In this document: positions 2,247 through 18,736 of the stretch, piece after piece
How positions within the stretch are numbered: position 1 is the stretch's first letter
Layout: every line of letters begins with the position of its first letter
Virus record (IMG/VR): IMGVR_UViG_3300030430_000612
Location: 1 to 21,661 of that record
Origin: a virus
Length of the DNA stretch: 21,661 nt
Direction: 5' to 3' (one strand)
Program-made: the position numbers and the translations under genes
The notes under the pieces: generated by a model
What the model was told of the DNA's origin: nothing
Databases searched by the model: none
Seen by the model: the letters and a program-made list of their open reading frames with translations, nothing else

Positions 2247-5200
2247 TTATCCGCAATACATTACGCAAGATACAAGTTTTACACCTGTCTCTCTGCTTCC
2301 GATTGTTACTTTTCCGATGGTTTTACTTCTGATGATGTCGTCCGACTGCACCTTGGCAGTTCCATCCCCATTACTTTCCAATAAATCACCACCATCACAA
2401 GCACCCGTCACCAATACTGATCCAATACCAAGAGAAGTCACCATTACTTTATTTTCTGGTGTAAATTTATTGACTACCCCATAAACTCTTTTATCTCCAA
2501 CTGTATCAGAAACTTTTACTTTTGCGTGATCTGCTCTCGTCTGACCTGCTTTAGGATGAGGTGCTTCTTCTCCTGTTTTTATGTCGGGCTGTGTATTTGG
2601 ATAGACATCTAGTTCATCTATCGTGCTTACCACAGTGCCAACCTGTACACTTGTAGAAATACCAGAGCTTTCGTGTTTACCTGAAAAACCGTTCAGTGAA
2701 ACAGTAGAGCCACTTACCTCAATGCTTCCTTCATCAGCATTGCCTTGGCGGAATATAATTAAAAGCCCGTCATTATTCTGACGATTTATAAAAACAGGTG
2801 GTGTTGATGTGGTGGACGTATTGTTTGCTGCGTAGAAAAAATTGGCAGCGCTATGTAAATTTCCAAAGTATGCGTTACTATTTCCCGCTGCCGACGATCC
2901 AAAAATAATATCATCACCAGAATAATCCGTTTGCAACGCCGATGCCTGATTAGCTGTCTGAATTTGAAAAGCGCCGCTAGCCAAGATGCGCATGACTTCC
3001 GTGCCGCCAGTTTGAAACGAAAGATACCCTGAGTTGGCGTTGTTGAAAGACACTCCGCCAGCCGATCCAGAGCCAGAGATGACACCCAAATCTAATGTCT
3101 GATTTGTATTATTTGTAAATCGCCCAACGATCCCAGATGAAGAATTAACGACGGTAAATTTTTCTGTTGGATTGCTAATTCCAATTGCCACGTTGCCGCG
3201 ATCAAGCACGAGATTGTCGGCGTATGACGTACCATTATTTCTCAAGGTAAATGAGTATTTTACAAGACCAGACGAAACAACCTGATTGAGCTTTAGGTCG
3301 AACTCACTACCACTTGTTAAAGCATACATCCAGCTTTGAACTACATTCGTACCAACGCCTTGAGCTGCAGGTTGTATCGTTAAAGGAGCATCTTGATTTG
3401 TAGCTCCAATACCAACGAAACCGCTGCTGTTGATGCGCATATGTTCTGAGCCGTTGTTTGCAAACTGTAGTGCATCCCCAGACAAATTTATGTAGTTTGT
3501 AGTGTCGTGAAAATAAATGGTTCCAGCACTAGAGCCGTTATCAACTAAGATGCCACCGCCGTACACATGCAGCTTTTGGCTAGGCGAAGTGGTCCCTATA
3601 CCCACGTTGCCACTGGAATTAATCACAAAACGTGTAGCAGTCGCATCAACATCATAAATCTCAAACCCTGCATTTGAAACGCCTGTGGTTCCTTGACCAA
3701 ACTCAAAGTTATCAGCACTAGACGCTGTACCTTCAAGCCTAATACGTGACAATCCACCAGTATCTTTGAGGTGAAGCTCTACTTGAGGTGAGTCTGTTCC
3801 AATCCCAACGTTGCCATTTTCATCAATCCTCATAGCCTCCGAAGAAGTATTACCTGCTGATGTAATGAATGCTAATTCTTCCCTGCCGCCTGTTGTATTC
3901 AAGGCTACTGAAACTATACCAGCAGGGGCGGTGCCTGATTGTGATCTAAAAGCAATTCCTGATGCAGTATCTGCCGCACCACGATCTTGGAATATCTCAA
4001 ACCTGTTCCATGTACTTTCAGTTCCCGCCGCAAACGTTGTATCTTCTGACGGCAGTGTATGAACCATCTCACCCGTTGATTTAATGCGCAAACGTTCTGA
4101 GGCCGCTGTGGCTATAGCAAGAAAATCATTTGTGTGATTATATTGCAAAAAGCCACGATAACCTTCATTTCCAGTAGTACCATCAGAAAAGAAAATAGAA
4201 CCGTTATTATTGTTACTAGAAGCAATAGTTATGCCTGTTGCACCAGATGTGCCTACAACAAGATTTTGCGCTCCCGCTGTTTGGCTGCTTGGTGCAGTGT
4301 TTGCAATCCCCACGTTGCCGCTGCTGTCGATGCGCATACGTTCTGTGCCAGTCGTTGCAAATGTCAACGTACCATTAGAAGATTCTTGTGCATCAAGTAT
4401 AACACCTGCATCGTTTCCTGTTTTTTGAAATGTGCTAATCTTTAAGCCAGAGGAATCTAAACCAAAAACAGATTGTAAACCATTTGTTGTCCCTTCAACT
4501 TGCAAAGCTGCACTAGGCGAACTCGTCCCTATCCCAACGCTGCCGTCACTGGTTATGCGCATACGTTCCGAAGTGCCATCGCCATTGACAAATTTTATAC
4601 CATTTGAACCGTCTAATGTATTAATAAAAAATCTCGCTGTTCCGTTTTCATTAAAACGTTGCGCCACAGCACCACTGGTTGAATTTAAACAAAATACAAC
4701 TCCTGTGCTACTTACGTGCAATGGAAAATCAGGGGCCGTCCCAATCCCCACGTCGCCGCTGCTATCTATCGTTACAGCATCGTTTCCTCCAGCTTTTCTG
4801 AATACGTGAGATGCGCCTGTCACATTACCCATTTGATATATAGCTTGACCGGCATTAGAAGATGCTTCATTTCCTGAGAGTGCTATAAATGCGCCTCTTG
4901 CAGAAGACTGACCCCCATTTCCTGCATCAATAATAATTCTTTGATCATCAGACCCATCAGAAGTTACAGATTTTATCATTAGTTGATTAGTCGTAACTCC
5001 AAAATCAAACTCGTCTGTTCCATCTGATAGTGTCAGGGTTGTGTTGGGCGTAGCACCAATTCCAACCTTATTATTAAATATGGCTGTCCCTGCGTCACTC
5101 ATATCAAGTGTCAAGGCAGTCACGTTGCTTCCGCCATCATTGCCTCGAAATACCATGTCTCCATCTTGGACAATAGAGTACAATTGAAAGTCATTATTAT

Positions 5201-11366: not shown

Positions 11367-12763
11367 CAGAAAGCTCCTGCAAATGATCCACCGCGTCGCT
11401 TAGCGTCTAGCACAGCCGCTTTTGATGCTTCCTGTATTTGTGGCATTAAGCCTAAAATCTCTGCTCTGACGGTCTGCTGTACTCCTGTAGTCACATTAAT
11501 GCTTTGGTTCACAACTACTGTGTCACCGCCTAGTTTATTATTTGGTATCACATTTCCGCTTCTATTAGGTATAATAAGCTCCGGCCCAGCTTCTCCAACC
11601 ATGTAAGGTCTGCCAGCAGAAACGGGGCCACCCATTCCCCTTGTTTCAATATTACCAAATGACGGAAATGATTGAGATATAGCTCCAGAAATAAAACCTG
11701 TGATTTTTTTTACTACAAATATTCTAAAAAGCTCTCCAATAATATCACGAGCCATTAGTCGAAACGCATCTTTTGCAGATTTTGTACCATCTGCCAAGGA
11801 CATGAAAGCGTCTCCAAATTTTTTTCCGATCATATCAGAAATCGTTTCAGTCTTAGTTTTGATTTTATCTAAAGCATCTTCACCAGTTTTACCGACTTTT
11901 TTAAAGTAAGAGAAAAGATCAATTGTCGTCATATTGCTTAATTCTTGTTGTAGATTTTTTATACCAGCAAAAGGTTTTTTTAATTCGTGGTCTAATTTAA
12001 ATGCAGCTTCTGCTGCATCCTCAATGGCAATAATTGAGTCATTTAAAGCATCGAGTGTGCCACTTGTATCTAAGTTCATGCTTTCTTTTACAGCAAGAAT
12101 AAATTCTAATACACTTGCTCTAGCATCGTGGAATTGTATGATTGCGTTTTTTGCAAAAAGCCGTAATCTTTTTCCAACTCGATCAAAAACTTCTCTAATA
12201 ATTGAAGGCAGATTAGTGACGACAATCAAAAATCCATTAAAGCCATTTATAATACCGTTAATTGCAATTTTAGCAGCCTCTTTGAGCACTTCAAATCCAC
12301 GCACTAACAAATTAAATAAAGGAGTTAATTTCTCTGTCACCGGTGCTAATGCGGATTTCACATCTTTACCAAACCTTTTGAAGTCAAAAGTTGTTTCTCT
12401 GGTCTTGCTTGCAACCATCGCAAGCGCACCGCCTGCAGCAACAAGCGCACCAATAATCATACCTTTGGGGCCAAAAACAGAGGCAAGTTGTGGACCTTGC
12501 ATCGTCATTATTCTAAGCGCATCAGTTCCCATAGATGCTTGCACAGCAATATCTTGAAACTGCAAAGAAGCCATGCCCAGATTGCGGGTAAGATTTCCTG
12601 ATGTTCTCGTTAATGCTCTATTGGTGTTTGCGTATTGTTTAAAGGCAACGTTAGATTTTGCCACCTGACTATTAACCTTGCCAAGTTGATCTTGCACTGC
12701 TTTCATTTGAGGAACTGCATTACCAACAGCATTCATCTCAAACGTGAGCTTTTCAACTGCCAT
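11366..12763 (-). CDS. Tape measure protein (short)
   Basis: The 465-aa product sits directly after the gpG/gpGT genes. The N-terminus is helical (about 1-60), then LGMASLQFQDIAVQASMGTD (63-82) and a hydrophobic stretch (about 101-118, GMIIGALVAAGGALAMVASK). More helices and two hydrophobic segments follow (about 165-183 and 343-362). A typical tape-measure end follows: GGPVSAGRPYMVGEAGPELI (378-397) and a basic-Gly tail. It sets tail length and may cross the host membrane during DNA entry. At about 1.5 angstrom per residue it predicts a tail near 70 nm, about half of lambda's. AGGAG lies ten bases before the ATG, which is inside the end of the frameshifted gpT frame. Confidence 0.85.
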   Translation of the reverse strand: MAVEKLTFEMNAVGNAVPQMKAVQDQLGKVNSQVAKSNVAFKQYANTNRALTRTSGNLTRNLGMASLQFQDIAVQASMGTDALRIMTMQGPQLASVFGPKGMIIGALVAAGGALAMVASKTRETTFDFKRFGKDVKSALAPVTEKLTPLFNLLVRGFEVLKEAAKIAINGIINGFNGFLIVVTNLPSIIREVFDRVGKRLRLFAKNAIIQFHDARASVLEFILAVKESMNLDTSGTLDALNDSIIAIEDAAEAAFKLDHELKKPFAGIKNLQQELSNMTTIDLFSYFKKVGKTGEDALDKIKTKTETISDMIGKKFGDAFMSLADGTKSAKDAFRLMARDIIGELFRIFVVKKITGFISGAISQSFPSFGNIETRGMGGPVSAGRPYMVGEAGPELIIPNRSGNVIPNNKLGGDTVVVNQSINVTTGVQQTVRAEILGLMPQIQEASKAAVLDAKRRGGSFAGAF

Positions 12764-13240
12764 CTTTTTCGCGCTCCTGTTTTATCTTAAAATAAGCGAC
12801 CCATTCATTATACTCTGAAAGGCTGATCTGATCTATTTCAGATATGGTTTTGCCTAAATGCTCTGCTAGAGAAATCAGATTGTATCTAAACGGATCGCTC
12901 CTTAGTTTTTTTCCTGTTCCTCTTCTGAGGCACTATCAAAGATCGCACCAAACATCTTAGGAATGACTTCAAATTGCTCACCCATTAGCTTAAATTTATG
13001 ACCATGATCGAAAACCTTGTTACCAGAAGCATCAAGTGCTTTCATTATGACAAGATCAATCATACCGTCAGCAGTTTGCTCATTTAAGAAATTTGGATGT
13101 TTCTTTTGCAATTTACTTAGATCACGAAAAGTAAGTGGCTCAAAATAAAACGTAAAAACCTTACCATCTTCACGCTCTATATCTACTGATCTCAATTCTT
13201 TTTCGGGTCTACTAGCAAAAAAATCATCAGCCAAAGACAT
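12753..13240 (-). CDS. gpGT-like tail assembly chaperone, made by -1 frameshift
   Basis: The product is residues 1-112 of the gpG-like protein followed, after a -1 slip at 12905-12911, by 50 residues read in the shifted frame to a TGA at 12753: 162 aa in all. The extension starts LRSDPFRYNLISLAEHLGKT and continues ISEIDQISLSEYNEWVAYFK, which is the usual look of the T domain of siphophage chaperones (a helix with LAEHLGKT..EI...S..E.NEW.AY). The shifted frame is open over the whole 138-base gap before the tape measure and ends 11 bases inside it. In lambda, gpG and gpGT in fixed ratio bind the tape measure and recruit tube protein. Here this is inferred from site, order and frame. Confidence 0.85.
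12902..13240 (-). CDS. gpG-like tail assembly chaperone
   Basis: The unshifted product has 112 aa: MSLADDFFASRPEKELRSVD, a beta segment (VFTFYFEPLTFRDLSKLQKK) and an acidic C-terminal tail SASEEEQEKN. The YFEPLTFRDL segment followed by a helix is typical of G-type chaperones located between tail tube and tape measure. The start is coupled to the tail-tube stop (TAATG) with no strong Shine-Dalgarno, so its level follows that of the tube gene. Most ribosomes should end here, with a minority continuing into gpGT. Confidence 0.85.
   Translation of the reverse strand: MSLADDFFASRPEKELRSVDIEREDGKVFTFYFEPLTFRDLSKLQKKHPNFLNEQTADGMIDLVIMKALDASGNKVFDHGHKFKLMGEQFEVIPKMFGAIFDSASEEEQEKN
12905..12911 (-). 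promoter_or_regulatory. Slippery heptamer A AAA AAC for -1 frameshifting
   Basis: On the coding strand the gpG frame ends GAA AAA AAC TAA, so A AAA AAC fits X XXY YYZ in the zero frame one codon before the stop. A GAGG lies seven bases upstream of the heptamer and could act as the Shine-Dalgarno-like stimulator known from dnaX-type sites. I find no strong stem-loop just downstream. Confidence 0.85.
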
Positions 13241-14100: not shown

Positions 14101-14396
14101 TATTGTTTCTCCAATTGTACGTCCGTGACACCAGTGCCATCATGGATAAACGCTCTTACTTTGTAATTGATTGAATTTATAATCATTGTATTACCGAATG
14201 CGATAGATGACACATCCGTAGTTCTACAGGTCAATCTTGGCTGTTCTTCATGTACTGGCACAATACCACCCGCATCAACTGGCACAGTTTCATTATCGAA
14301 TATACCCTTTATTGTAGCCCCTTCGAAGGTAACATTGACGCCATGCTCGTTAGTTGACAGCATAATTGTTAAATCAGCATCAAACGGTATAGACAT
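14100..14396 (-). CDS. Head-tail joining protein (FII-like)
   Basis: The 98-aa product has a helical or charged start (MSIPFDADLTIMLSTNEHGV) and a beta body with IKGIFDNETVPVDAGGIVPV, PRLTCRTTDVSSIAFGNTMI and YKVRAFIHDGTGVTDVQLEK. The order I.G.FD followed by P.l.....d and a final YkV......G...l.L is that of lambda gpFII and related joining proteins, which sit at the neck and bind the tail terminator. GAGG lies seven bases before the ATG, which is coupled to the upstream stop (TAATG). Confidence 0.75.
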   Translation of the reverse strand: MSIPFDADLTIMLSTNEHGVNVTFEGATIKGIFDNETVPVDAGGIVPVHEEQPRLTCRTTDVSSIAFGNTMIINSINYKVRAFIHDGTGVTDVQLEKQ

Positions 14397-14590
14397 TATT
14401 CATCCTCTGGCGTTGATACTTTCTTAACAGCGCGATCTGTTTTTTTTAGTGTTTTTGGCTTTGTCGCTTTCTTAGCAAAACCACGTTTAATTAGCTTCTC
14501 AGCAATGCGGTCTGGTATGTCATGCTCTTCGCCTTGATGCATATTGCCGCCCATGCCAATTGTGCATTTTTTTAATATCTTTACTTTCAT
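14396..14590 (-). CDS. Small basic protein downstream of the capsid gene
   Basis: A 64-aa product with 14 Lys residues. It begins MKVKILKKCTIGMGGNMHQG, then EEHDIPDRIAEKLIKRGFAK, then a Lys/Thr/Pro tail. The compact first 40 residues (two strands with a Gly-rich turn, then an I..k.A..Li.rG.A helix) resemble small proteins often coded after capsid genes of HK97-fold phages, of uncertain role in decoration or head completion. AGAGG lies six bases before the ATG. It is the first gene after the capsid hairpin, which may set its expression. Confidence 0.7.
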   Translation of the reverse strand: MKVKILKKCTIGMGGNMHQGEEHDIPDRIAEKLIKRGFAKKATKPKTLKKTDRAVKKVSTPEDE

Positions 14591-14643: not shown

Positions 14644-15963
14644 TTATGAAGGATCAACTTCATTTGTGATTGCGAAGCTAACCGCATGACGTACGCCGAC
14701 ATCCAATTCAGTGTGCAGTACCATTTTGACTGTACCTGCTGATGATCCAGTAAATGGATCAACAAGTATAGATGGCGCTCCAAACTGTGCAATTATTAAT
14801 TGTGAGAAGTCACCAAAAATAAGCGCAGATGCATCTGTCCCGCCATCGCCCGGATTTAGGTTTGTTGGCACGTTAGATGTAAACGCCGCAGGATACCCAT
14901 ATAGGTTATTCCAAGGATCGTTAAGTATCATCACGCTGTCAGTTGAAGCAACTCTTGCTGTTGTCGCCATTGCAGCTTTGACTGCTGGATGTGACAAAAA
15001 GCCAGCAGCATTTTGATCGCGAATTCCGTTGTCCTCTTCAACTAATTTCGTTAGATCAACTACGTCATCCCATGTCAACGCTGCACGATCTGTACCAGAA
15101 GAGATATCTAAATCATTTACACCTGATGTGTTTAAGATACCTGTTGGCTGGCCTGATGACCCACTTCCTTGAATTGCATGAAACTCCATACGATCAGCAG
15201 CAGATGCCAATAGATCATTGCGGATAATTTGCTCAATCGCAGGAACGCTTTCAAGCATCAAAAGACGTGACATTGTTTGAGATGCACCCATAGTACGGGG
15301 TTGCAGCGTCACGCCGCCATCTGTAGGCGATCCATCCGAAACATCAGCCAATTCTTCAACAAATGCGGCACTTGCGCCTGTTGCTAACTTTGGCATCTTT
15401 ATCCGATTTGTTAGACCCGTCATATATGTTGCGCCCAATTCACCAAGAACGCTACGCGCACGAAGAGCTTCAATGAACATATCCGCTCTATGTACCGTTG
15501 GAACAAAATCATCAAAAACAACTTCGGAACTTGACCCGCCTGTAGCTGCTGTTGCAAGTGGCGCTCGTTGACCCCATGCAAAATCTGGCACATAGACCCC
15601 TTCAGCTTCACGCCCGATACGGTGCGCAATCTCATCATTGAGTTCGCGCTCGTAACCAGCATTTCTCCAATTTTGTGTGATTTGAGCTTGAACCATACGA
15701 CCAAGAGAATATTCACGCTTCTCTTTCACTGGTACGTCAATTGCTGATGGAGAAACATCTAACGGCTTGTCTGTAATAGCGTTAAGAAGTTCACCACGAA
15801 ACTCATCAACTGATGTTCCCTTAGCGATTGCTTCGTTTGCAAGGTCGCGCTTGTTGTGCTTGGCCCCAAGTGCCAAGATTTCGGCATCATTCTTACGTGC
15901 GGCACGAACTGCTTCAGCTTTTACCGCATCAAGATTGATGTCTGTTTTGACTTCATCTGTCAT
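14644..15963 (-). CDS. Nested product: stand-alone major capsid protein
   Basis: Met433 of the fused gene has AAAAGGAG ending eight bases before its ATG, one of the best ribosome sites in the window. It lies in the linker directly after the protease domain (GRSVPAEPKPSTSKGDVK). Starting here gives a 439-aa protein with a helical delta/scaffold segment (about 433-515) and the complete HK97-fold capsid, the normal size for a capsid precursor. A head needs hundreds of capsid copies but few proteases, so this internal start would supply the excess, like the C/Nu3 overlap of lambda. The nested start is inferred from sequence. Confidence 0.7.
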   Translation of the reverse strand: MTDEVKTDINLDAVKAEAVRAARKNDAEILALGAKHNKRDLANEAIAKGTSVDEFRGELLNAITDKPLDVSPSAIDVPVKEKREYSLGRMVQAQITQNWRNAGYERELNDEIAHRIGREAEGVYVPDFAWGQRAPLATAATGGSSSEVVFDDFVPTVHRADMFIEALRARSVLGELGATYMTGLTNRIKMPKLATGASAAFVEELADVSDGSPTDGGVTLQPRTMGASQTMSRLLMLESVPAIEQIIRNDLLASAADRMEFHAIQGSGSSGQPTGILNTSGVNDLDISSGTDRAALTWDDVVDLTKLVEEDNGIRDQNAAGFLSHPAVKAAMATTARVASTDSVMILNDPWNNLYGYPAAFTSNVPTNLNPGDGGTDASALIFGDFSQLIIAQFGAPSILVDPFTGSSAGTVKMVLHTELDVGVRHAVSFAITNEVDPS

Positions 15964-16620
15964 TTTAACATCTCCTTTTGATGTTGAGGGTTTAGGTTCT
16001 GCTGGAACTGATCGCCCAACACCAACAAGATTTGACCTATCTGCTGGCACTGAAACTATCGAAACTTCCATAGGTGTGGTTTTGATCCTGTAGTAGTTTT
16101 CTGGATCGTCATCACGTTCAATTCGACCATCAATCCGATAGCCTACACTGATGTTTGCTCTGATGCCATCAGTCACATCATTGAACACTTCTGAGGCAAG
16201 CGCACTTTTTCCAAACCGCACCTTTGCACGAAGACGCCGTGCATTCTCATCAAGTTCAACTCCTTCGACAACGCCTATCTGCTTAGTCATATCGTGATCT
16301 AAAAGCAAAGGCGCTCTCCCACTATTCAAAAATCTTAAATCCATGCTGTCGGGCGAGTGATCCATGACTTCAAGTCCAAAATCTCTCTCAACAGGTTCTT
16401 CAGAAGATACGCCCACCATTACACGTCTGTTCTTCTCATCAATAGACTTATCGTCATCCATATAATGACCACGCACAGACATATCTTCGCGGTTAAAGCG
16501 TTCTTCTTGCTCTTCTTCTTCATCATGGATTTTAGCATACGTAATCACATAAGTGTCATCTGTTTCTTGGATGTCCACAATGTGACGCTCCTCCATTTCT
16601 TCAAATAGATCGTCTGTCAT
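14644..16620 (-). CDS. Nested product: protease-capsid from an internal start
   Basis: Met214 of the fused head gene is preceded by GAGAGG with a seven-base spacer to the ATG, as good as sites before accepted genes here. Starting at 16620 would make a 658-aa protein, MTDDLFEEMEERHIVDIQET onwards, lacking both N-terminal domains and keeping protease and capsid. The border falls in the linker right after the DUF5824-like domain (about residue 205). Translation from this site is inferred, not shown. Confidence 0.5.
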   Translation of the reverse strand: MTDDLFEEMEERHIVDIQETDDTYVITYAKIHDEEEEQEERFNREDMSVRGHYMDDDKSIDEKNRRVMVGVSSEEPVERDFGLEVMDHSPDSMDLRFLNSGRAPLLLDHDMTKQIGVVEGVELDENARRLRAKVRFGKSALASEVFNDVTDGIRANISVGYRIDGRIERDDDPENYYRIKTTPMEVSIVSVPADRSNLVGVGRSVPAEPKPSTSKGDVKMTDEVKTDINLDAVKAEAVRAARKNDAEILALGAKHNKRDLANEAIAKGTSVDEFRGELLNAITDKPLDVSPSAIDVPVKEKREYSLGRMVQAQITQNWRNAGYERELNDEIAHRIGREAEGVYVPDFAWGQRAPLATAATGGSSSEVVFDDFVPTVHRADMFIEALRARSVLGELGATYMTGLTNRIKMPKLATGASAAFVEELADVSDGSPTDGGVTLQPRTMGASQTMSRLLMLESVPAIEQIIRNDLLASAADRMEFHAIQGSGSSGQPTGILNTSGVNDLDISSGTDRAALTWDDVVDLTKLVEEDNGIRDQNAAGFLSHPAVKAAMATTARVASTDSVMILNDPWNNLYGYPAAFTSNVPTNLNPGDGGTDASALIFGDFSQLIIAQFGAPSILVDPFTGSSAGTVKMVLHTELDVGVRHAVSFAITNEVDPS

Positions 16621-17259
16621 ATCTTCACCTCTCTTAGATGACATTGGGTGGCCCTTTGGTAAAAGGTCAGTATCGTGCTTTCCACTACGGAACTTTCCAT
16701 TGCGGAGAGCATACAAATATGAGTTTACCCTTGCAAATGCCCATTGCTCTGGACTCTTGACGCTTGGTCTTACGCTCTGAGGGTTGGTCTTGTATGCGCC
16801 TACACCGCGATTAAACACCGCCGATAAAGTTCTAAGGTTAGTGCGTTTACTAGCTACATTTCCTACTTTTTTATTATGATCGTCGGCTTTTTTCTGTAAA
16901 CCCTTACGCACCGCTCCAGTTATAGCTCTTAAACCACGCTCTTCTTTTTCTAATCTATCTCTAATAATTTTTGACCATCTAAAACCAGCGTCACCGCCCC
17001 ACAAAGACCATGCAATACGTCCGTTAGATGGATAACCATCCTCGCCAACTTCAAAACCTTCTGCTTTCTTATCAACTTCATGGCGACTGAAAAAAGAAAA
17101 CATACGCTTTACCGTATCCTCAGAAAGCTCTTTATCGTTCACAATGTCTCTAGCTCTAGCAATGCCAACAGCAGTGCCACCACGCCCAAACTCTCGCCGC
17201 CATTCTAAACCACGCTCCGCTTCGGCTTTCATTCCTGCTGTTGGTTTATATGTCGCCAT
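14644..17259 (-). CDS. Fused head protein: N-terminal domains, prohead protease and major capsid
   Basis: This 871-aa chain has four parts. Residues 1-100 (RGLEWRREFGRGGTAVGIAR, FFSRHEVDKKAEGF, GRIAWSLWGGDAG) are a domain often attached to phage head proteins. Residues about 135-205 resemble DUF5824 (VFNRGVGAYKTNPQSVRPSV, SPEQWAFARVNSYL). Residues about 278-425 are an HK97-type S78 prohead protease with LLLDHD (His322) and ISVGYR (Ser371) as likely catalytic residues. Residues about 433-515 look like a helical delta/scaffold region, and 516-871 are an HK97-fold capsid (MPKLATGASAAFVEE, GVTLQPRTMGASQTMSRLLM, GSGSSGQPTGIL). Protease-capsid fusions are known. The two extra N-terminal domains and internal starts at 16620 and 15963 are the notable points. 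It overlaps the portal gene by 14 bases; GAGG lies six bases before the ATG. Confidence 0.85.
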   Translation of the reverse strand: MATYKPTAGMKAEAERGLEWRREFGRGGTAVGIARARDIVNDKELSEDTVKRMFSFFSRHEVDKKAEGFEVGEDGYPSNGRIAWSLWGGDAGFRWSKIIRDRLEKEERGLRAITGAVRKGLQKKADDHNKKVGNVASKRTNLRTLSAVFNRGVGAYKTNPQSVRPSVKSPEQWAFARVNSYLYALRNGKFRSGKHDTDLLPKGHPMSSKRGEDMTDDLFEEMEERHIVDIQETDDTYVITYAKIHDEEEEQEERFNREDMSVRGHYMDDDKSIDEKNRRVMVGVSSEEPVERDFGLEVMDHSPDSMDLRFLNSGRAPLLLDHDMTKQIGVVEGVELDENARRLRAKVRFGKSALASEVFNDVTDGIRANISVGYRIDGRIERDDDPENYYRIKTTPMEVSIVSVPADRSNLVGVGRSVPAEPKPSTSKGDVKMTDEVKTDINLDAVKAEAVRAARKNDAEILALGAKHNKRDLANEAIAKGTSVDEFRGELLNAITDKPLDVSPSAIDVPVKEKREYSLGRMVQAQITQNWRNAGYERELNDEIAHRIGREAEGVYVPDFAWGQRAPLATAATGGSSSEVVFDDFVPTVHRADMFIEALRARSVLGELGATYMTGLTNRIKMPKLATGASAAFVEELADVSDGSPTDGGVTLQPRTMGASQTMSRLLMLESVPAIEQIIRNDLLASAADRMEFHAIQGSGSSGQPTGILNTSGVNDLDISSGTDRAALTWDDVVDLTKLVEEDNGIRDQNAAGFLSHPAVKAAMATTARVASTDSVMILNDPWNNLYGYPAAFTSNVPTNLNPGDGGTDASALIFGDFSQLIIAQFGAPSILVDPFTGSSAGTVKMVLHTELDVGVRHAVSFAITNEVDPS
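15972..15979 (-). promoter_or_regulatory. Internal Shine-Dalgarno for the capsid start
   Basis: AAAAGGAG in the coding strand, eight bases before the in-frame ATG at 15963, placed at the protease/capsid border of the fused head gene. It decides the start of the stand-alone capsid form. Confidence 0.75.
16628..16634 (-). promoter_or_regulatory. Internal Shine-Dalgarno for the protease-capsid start
   Basis: AGAGAGG in the coding strand with GAGG ending seven bases before the in-frame ATG at 16620, in the linker between the DUF5824-like and protease domains of the fused head gene. Confidence 0.55.
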
Positions 17260-18736
17260 CTGAGACCTCTGGTTCTGCTGGTGACTTCATGCCAAATGGT
17301 TCAAAAGCCATAGATAGTCCGTATCTTTCAGCCATCTCTTTATCAGATCGAATTTGACTAAACAGCTCTTCAACGTCGCGCCCATAGTTCGCCGCGATGT
17401 CGTTCATACTTACTATTCCGTTAGAAAGCGCTGTGACATGAGCGTTAATCTCTCTTTGTGGATCAACCCAAGCAAAACCGCGCCCTCTGAAGTGTAGATT
17501 GTCAGAAAACTTGTCTAGTTTTGTGATTGGAATAGGGATATCACCAAATGAAAGGGCAGATTTTAGCCAAGTTCTGAAAACAGGTTCGCAAAAATGCTGT
17601 ATAATGAAAGATTGCAAAGTTTTATAGTGATCTCGCTCTTCAATCGTTCCCTGCCTAATAGAAGAATAAGAAACACCCTTCAAATCGTTTGATAGGCTCG
17701 TGTAACTCACGTTAAGGCCCGACGCTATACCGCGCAAGACCGCTTCCTCAAAATCCGCAAAGGCTGATGTTGGGTGCGCTGGGTCTATCATTTTAAAGTC
17801 ATGCCCAGAAGGTAACTGATAAACGGACGCTGGGGCCATATCAATTACTGGTACATCATCTTCAGTCATACTGTCACCGGCAAATTCATCACCGTCTGGA
17901 GTTGTAATGATACCAAACTTTGCAGCCGCCGCTCTAGCTGCAATCAACTCAGCCTCTCGATATCCATGCAGCATTTTAAGGGATGCAATAGCAGGCGCCA
18001 TAAAAGGTTCGCCGCGCGTCTGAAATGTGCGCTGTGAAATAAAGAGATGCAGCATTTCATCTGCTGATATGCGTTGATGTTTCCTTGAGCTTCTATTTGT
18101 GAAGTTAAAGCTGTCATTTGGATGACTGGTCAGAACATAATAAGCCACTGGTTTCTGGTATTGATCGACTTCAACGCCCATACGAATTTCATTGCCATTG
18201 TCGGCACGTCCATTTTTATCGTGGTCAATTAAATCAGCTTCAAGAAACTGAATATTAAAGCCATCTCTAAAGTTTCCGGTCATATACTTTACAAAAACCT
18301 CGCCATCTCTGGCAAGCGTTTCAGCAACAAATCTTTGACAGTCTAGCCACGACATACGCCCTGTCACTTCGGGATTGCCACACCTTCCCCAAACCTTAAA
18401 CGCATTTTCTAAAATAGCATTACCAGCAGCATCCAAACCACCGTCGGAGTTAGTGGCTCTTACTTGTACAGTAAAACCTTTTTCGCCAACAACATTTGTA
18501 CGGATGAGATTTAGAAACCGCTTTGCGTATTCGTTATCTCTAGCAAGCTCCCTACTTCTATTTCTTAAAATAGGTAAGTCTAACTTTAATTCGCTATCTG
18601 CTGAGAAGCTAGAACCGACAAAATCGGCAAATAATCTGCCTTGATTTGCACCCGCGTAACTTCTGCGCCTCCGTCTCCGCACAGGTGTTACTGTTGATGT
18701 CACTTGATCGCGCCTAAAAATATCGAATAAACCCAT
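17246..18736 (-). CDS. Portal protein (lambda gpB family)
   Basis: The 496-aa product matches the lambda-type portal family in length and motifs. It has an Arg-rich N-terminus (VRRRRRRSYAGANQGRLFAD), LRNRSRELARDNEYAKRFLN, VVGEKGF and LARDGEVFVKYM. Further on are ISADEMLHLFISQRTFQTRG, the stem-region YTSLSNDLKGVSYSSIRQGT and the late FRGRGFAWVDPQREINAHVT. It forms the dodecameric ring at the capsid vertex through which terminase pumps DNA. The ATG shares a base with the previous stop (TAATG) and has GAGG eight bases upstream. Its C-terminus overlaps the fused head gene by 14 bases. Confidence 0.9.
   Translation of the reverse strand: MGLFDIFRRDQVTSTVTPVRRRRRRSYAGANQGRLFADFVGSSFSADSELKLDLPILRNRSRELARDNEYAKRFLNLIRTNVVGEKGFTVQVRATNSDGGLDAAGNAILENAFKVWGRCGNPEVTGRMSWLDCQRFVAETLARDGEVFVKYMTGNFRDGFNIQFLEADLIDHDKNGRADNGNEIRMGVEVDQYQKPVAYYVLTSHPNDSFNFTNRSSRKHQRISADEMLHLFISQRTFQTRGEPFMAPAIASLKMLHGYREAELIAARAAAAKFGIITTPDGDEFAGDSMTEDDVPVIDMAPASVYQLPSGHDFKMIDPAHPTSAFADFEEAVLRGIASGLNVSYTSLSNDLKGVSYSSIRQGTIEERDHYKTLQSFIIQHFCEPVFRTWLKSALSFGDIPIPITKLDKFSDNLHFRGRGFAWVDPQREINAHVTALSNGIVSMNDIAANYGRDVEELFSQIRSDKEMAERYGLSMAFEPFGMKSPAEPEVSDGDI

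Follow-up and report, generated by a model that had tools for sequence, protein, structure and literature searches.

Nested translation starts predicted in a fused module-protease-capsid head gene of a virus related to the CRP roseophages

How can a single reading frame that joins a prohead protease to the major capsid protein yield many capsid subunits and few proteases? This question is raised by an 871-codon ORF at positions 14644-17259 (- strand, ATG at 17259) of the window, which is the whole 21.7-kb virus record analysed here (21,661 nucleotides). Gene roles in the window were assigned from profile searches. The gene order, all on the - strand, is terminase, head-tail joining protein, portal, fused head gene, head closure, tail terminator, tail tube and tail chaperone. 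The features of the fused head gene are as follows.

14644..17259, - strand: fused head gene, longest product, 871 codons, started at the ATG at 17259
17265..17270, - strand: Shine-Dalgarno sequence (SD) AGAGGT of the full-length start, anti-SD energy -7.0
16933..17247, - strand: N-terminal helical domain phrog_2859, residues 5-109, profile match with E 3e-28
16672..16881, - strand: DUF5824 domain, residues 127-196, profile match, other domains instead in relatives
16628..16633, - strand: internal SD GAGAGG of the predicted protease-capsid start, 7 nt spacing, anti-SD energy -12.5
16618..16620, - strand: internal ATG, codon 214 (M214), predicted start of a 658-aa protease-capsid product
16036..16428, - strand: S78 prohead protease core, about residues 278-408, H322 and S371 invariant
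15940..16017, - strand: suppressed synonymous change around the predicted capsid start, codons 415-440, from synonymous divergence
15972..15979, - strand: internal SD AAAAGGAG of the predicted capsid start, 8 nt spacing
15961..15963, - strand: internal ATG, codon 433 (M433), predicted start of a 439-aa capsid protein
15550..15963, - strand: predicted delta/scaffold domain, helical, about residues 433-570, from AF2 secondary structure
14647..15498, - strand: mature HK97-fold capsid domain, about residues 588-871, Pfam PF05065 and alignment with PDB 8gta chain A

That two N-terminal domains, a prohead protease and the capsid protein are joined in one gene, as the first-pass annotation had proposed, was confirmed by profile searches: the N-terminal module consists of a phrog_2859-like domain and DUF5824, the protease is of the S78 family and the capsid protein is of the HK97 type. 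Peptidase_S78 was matched at residues 313-408 and Phage_capsid at 590-864, both above the Pfam cut-off, and the phrog_617 profile 'major head protein' spanned residues 271-868 (E 2e-106), which places the gene among the phrog_617 fusions, where a single ORF encodes the S78 protease, the delta domain and the HK97-fold capsid. The catalytic residues H322 and S371 were invariant in 37 sequences, including those of R4C and VP882, and the capsid structure of R4C (8gta chain A) was matched in sequence from residue 589 (E 3.5e-18). The two internal ATG/SD pairs, at 16620 with GAGAGG and 7 nt spacing and at 15963 with AAAAGGAG and 8 nt spacing, were found where that annotation had placed them.

The AF2 model of the full-length protein was weak (pLDDT 64), and only its low-confidence linkers and secondary structure were used. 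Segments with pLDDT below 50 included residues 210-271 (nearly continuous) and 404-443, and both internal ATGs lie in these predicted disordered stretches, in line with the earlier claim that each falls at a domain border. Residues 443-564 were modelled, at low overall confidence, as helical, followed by a disordered stretch and then the shell domain. This predicted layout after residue 443 would correspond to a delta domain and shell of the HK97 type, and the helical region at about residues 433-570 may be analogous to the HK97 delta domain.

The closest isolates were the CRP roseophages CRP-406, CRP-811, CRP-821, CRP-822, CRP-823 and CRP-831. Phages of the CRP-822 type share the gene order and the three-part gene with the window, at about 45-82% identity in pieces; unlike here, the gene is annotated there solely as 'major capsid protein', and the paper on these phages makes no mention of a protease (PMC12629253). 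In IMG/VR, 80 loci were related to the fused gene at 46-100% identity, and separate protease and capsid ORFs were found in none of these close loci. The reading frame was open over the fused region in 86 of the 87 related IMG/VR and phage loci, some of which end at contig ends. The exception was CRP-823 (L083, PV211013), in which an extra T in a TTT run at about position 3699 shifts the N-terminal module; in its GenBank record the gene is split in two by this extra T, and both parts are called 'major capsid protein'. CRP-823 was considered as a natural test of the internal starts and was set aside as deciding nothing, the difference being one extra T in a phage outside the two purified ones.

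For the internal starts the case rests on comparison and not on this sequence alone: by a crude initiation score, M214 ranked first and M433 seventh of the 53 in-frame start codons, the low rank of M433 arising in this model from local structure that must be opened. Of the 47 homologues that remained after dereplication at 95%, 45 have Met433, which sits inside a fast-changing linker and forms an invariant column in alignment A3. The two exceptions, the cyanophages S-CBS1 and S-CBS3, have a Met a few residues downstream. An SD preceded Met433 in 45 of 45 sequences at spacings of 5-8 nt, with its core in frames 0, 1 and 2 in 15, 15 and 15 cases. Since amino-acid conservation cannot produce such an equal spread over three reading frames, selection on the nucleotides is indicated. 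No other internal Met of the gene was both strongly conserved and preceded by an SD in the 47 homologues. Median anti-SD energy at this position was -7.4, with values at or below -6 in 89% of the homologues; the corresponding shares were 8% over all codons and 11.5% for internal ATGs in frame.

Synonymous sites were analysed in two ways. In short, the seven codons upstream of the ATG were recoded synonymously and SD strength was compared; the native SD of M433 was stronger than the average recoding in 98% of cases, with a mean z of -1.93 versus +0.13 for 1013 control ATGs. Synonymous divergence also fell to its gene-wide low at codons 415-440, whichever of three identity bands was taken and also when clades were weighted. 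Differences were found in 57 of 357 conserved-residue codons of this stretch (16%) versus 38.6% elsewhere, with a binomial p of 8e-21 over 22 pairs that is only indicative, the pairs being disjoint and not fully independent. One small clade (L049, n=3) lacked the minimum. In the cyanophages S-CBS3 (L087), S-CBS1 (L088) and S-LBS1 (L091), a Met without an SD is found at the start of the delta domain, which perhaps reflects weaker use of SDs in cyanobacteria. The gene-wide synonymous minimum, the SD in three frames and the nearly invariant Met bear out the prediction that the capsid SD/ATG pair is conserved at synonymous sites, and on these comparisons M433 is strongly supported as a start for the capsid protein.

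Two other readings of this conservation were weighed. Met433 and its flank might be kept as a cleavage site of the gene's own protease, since they lie between protease and scaffold in a predicted disordered linker, where a cut would be useful. The residues flanking Met433 vary freely, however (SKGDVK, SLEDVT, TQRSDP, VKTEIA and NIEVKL), while the nucleotide SD is kept, and both the recoding test and the synonymous minimum measure constraint on the nucleotides rather than on the protein. A cleavage site in place of a start is thus extremely unlikely; a cut in this linker in addition to initiation is possible. The other reading is that only the full-length protein is made and is cut by its protease into module, protease, scaffold and capsid. 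This is the published view for the related fused genes of MD8 (PMC8508860) and Murka (PMC10892653), each described as one propeptide, and both a protease and linkers are present here. It predicts no conservation of SDs, whereas the SD persists across three frames and synonymous change around M433 is suppressed, and a T=7 shell would then probably need about 415 proteases and modules per procapsid. We regard it as very improbable.

For the protease start the same signals were found at lower strength. In 44 of 47 homologues a Met lay no more than 16 codons upstream of the RHI...ETDD motif, usually with an SD, and in the recoding test the SDs were better than synonymous recodings (mean z -1.18). 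Codons 204-219 formed a real but small synonymous minimum, 53 of 186 codons differing versus 38.2% elsewhere (p 0.0036). Synonymous conservation at M214, which the first-pass annotation had named as a check, was thus borne out in part: a Met with an SD just before RHI...ETDD is functionally kept, and the statistics are weaker than at M433. A start at M214 is supported, less strongly than that at M433.

These weaker signals leave room for a gene with two tiers only, in which M433 is used, a Met and an SD occur near codon 214 as by-products of an A/G-rich, charged linker, and the full-length protein is the source of all protease. Such a reading would agree with the small synonymous effect, with the weak SD in several relatives and with the exact Met codon, which floats by several codons among relatives, although floating is expected of a start in a linker and not of a protein feature. 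Against it, a Met with an SD before the protease recurs despite swaps of the domains upstream (CRP-821 M324, L104 M124, L179 M291 and S-CBS3 M213), and the ORFs of distant fused genes are mostly 550-750 codons long, about the size of the predicted M214 product (658). We consider two tiers unlikely. M214 may be an old gene start that was retained after domains had joined upstream.

The region upstream of M214 (16621-17259) is mosaic among relatives, with swaps in loci L019-L036, L082, L085 and L087. The first slot is occupied by the phrog_2859-like helical domain or by another domain (the L019-L033 group), and the second by DUF5824, Hva1_TUDOR (CRP-811, L034) or a PNEHAARL-type domain (CRP-821, L036, S-CBS). 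Residues 1-213 were modelled by AF2 with a pLDDT of 84; a search of the PDB gave no match to the fold and no solved relative. In BFVD, the phrog_2859-like domain matched predicted phage proteins that bear the names prohead protease, XkdF, portal, ParB and Dps, and it is a mobile domain of phage head-region proteins. Judged by this pattern of swaps, the N-terminal end of the head gene behaves as if it were an acceptor site for domains.

Given the ORF, its domains, the SD/ATG pairs, their conservation at the nucleotide level and their position in predicted disordered linkers, it is quite probable that one frame with three translation starts specifies capsid, protease-capsid and module-protease-capsid proteins, the longer forms being co-assembled as a protease-bearing minority. 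Initiation at M433 would give a complete HK97-type capsid protein, with delta/scaffold and shell domains; initiation at M214 would place the S78 protease on its N-terminus, and initiation at codon 1 would add the N-terminal module. The common C-terminus would let the longer forms build into the shell as a minority. In HK97-fold capsid proteins the N-terminus faces the procapsid interior, so such subunits would carry protease and module inside. There, the protease would cut the linkers and the delta domain and release itself by self-cutting. While use of the starts, co-assembly, self-cleavage and product ratios are predictions, the idea of three nested products with a common C-terminus drew strong support from the comparison at M433 and weaker support from that at M214.

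The expected ratio, with much capsid, less protease and little N-terminal module, was supported by a model of initiation for its last part: the full-length start was modelled as weakest in 37 of 39 homologues. For the other two products the order did not follow, M214 and M433 having similar modelled strengths, equal within the simplified initiation model, and this model was dropped as a source of product ratios since it did not separate them.

The closest known arrangement is C/Nu3 of phage lambda, in which the gpC protease is of the S49 type. Both genes have one frame, an internal start and a common C-terminus, and in both the fusion of protease to assembly domain is, or is here predicted to be, a minor form that enters the procapsid; the internal in-frame SD and ATG are here conserved at the nucleotide level. 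In lambda the shared part is the scaffold only and the capsid protein is encoded by a separate gene (PMC8508860). Here, in contrast, the shared part comprises scaffold and capsid, a third tier lies upstream and the protease is of the S78 type. From its sequence, the fused head gene would work like C/Nu3 and is not a member of that system, given its S78 protease and the capsid in the same ORF. AAV (VP1/VP2/VP3) and the herpesvirus protease-scaffold also have nested proteins that share their C-terminus within one shell or scaffold, with an enzyme on the longer form; these belong to other viruses with other expression mechanisms and serve as analogies only.

Fused genes of the phrog_617 type (MD8, Murka/FoX, VP882, phiHAP-1, RcCronus and R4C) have homologous protease, delta and capsid domains. 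At the capsid border, those compared have a Met, which in most of them is preceded by an SD; unlike the gene studied here, most lack an N-terminal module. An internal start is not mentioned in the papers on MD8 (PMC8508860), R4C (PMC10276861) and Murka (PMC10892653).

A wider set of 86 fused genes was assembled from prophages and virus contigs, most of them 31-46% identical to the query. Record titles named Proteobacteria, Nitrospirales, Planctomycetota, Cloacimonadota and others, with the reservation that metagenome bins can be mixed; L110 and L121 (stops or frame breaks) and L187 (cut short) were left out. An in-frame ATG was found within the protease-capsid linker in 86 of 86 genes, with an SD at or below -5.5 in 70 of them versus 14.5% of control windows, and in 44 of the 86 it was the ATG with the best SD of the whole gene. 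Following dereplication at 80%, the recoding test gave a z of -0.93 versus -0.04 for control ATGs chosen in the same way (p 2e-11). In 43 of 69 cases the SD core was in frame 0; lysine/glutamate-rich linkers could therefore account for part of the signal, an effect for which the recoding test allows. The arrangement at the capsid border was the same in VP882, phiHAP-1, PT1, Arya, Persinger, PPpW-3, KA2-1 and RcCronus. In R4C, M189 is preceded by GGAGG at the right distance, the strongest SD among the ATGs of its gene. By cryo-EM, the R4C virion contains 415 copies of the capsid product of its fused gene (PMC10276861); the chain in 8gta has 268 residues, from an ORF of 629. A query with R4C against viral contigs returned no relatives.

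On this evidence we favour, with some reserve, an internal capsid start that is general to S78 protease-capsid fusions in tailed phages and prophages of many bacterial phyla. Such fusions would be nested gene sets in which a minority of subunits takes the protease into the procapsid, together, in the marine lineage, with an exchangeable N-terminal cargo module. The first-pass annotation had considered the nested arrangement new. An internal capsid start in fused protease-capsid genes was not found reported in the open-access literature (subscription papers being outside its scope), and novelty holds to that extent; the capsid start itself is not special to this gene and appears to be shared by such fusions generally.

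A conserved internal start would solve the copy-number problem of fused protease-capsid genes, which must supply about 415 capsid subunits while few proteases are needed, and it suggests how the protease gets inside the procapsid. For many phages, the 'major capsid protein' as annotated would then begin at the wrong place and have the wrong size, with consequences for structural work, phylogenies and the identification of proteins. The N-terminal module would likewise be carried into the head, and this end of the protein points to a natural place for other domains to be carried there.

Two further elements were noted in the window. At 12756-12911 (- strand), the end of the tail chaperone ORF (12902-13240) has a -1 frameshift site of the lambda G/GT type: the slippery run A_AAA_AAC is followed at once by the TAA stop, and a GAGGA lies some 10 nt upstream. 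The -1 frame reads LRSDPFRYNLISLAEHLGKTISEIDQISLSEYNEWVAYFKIKQEREKDGS and ends just past the start of the tape-measure gene; the slippery run and the -1 extension are kept in more than 40 related loci. Just after the capsid gene lies a 64-codon ORF (14396-14590, - strand; MKVKILKKCTIGMGGNMHQGEEHDIPDR...), below the length limit of the ORF list, and in the CRP phages a hypothetical gene is annotated at this place.
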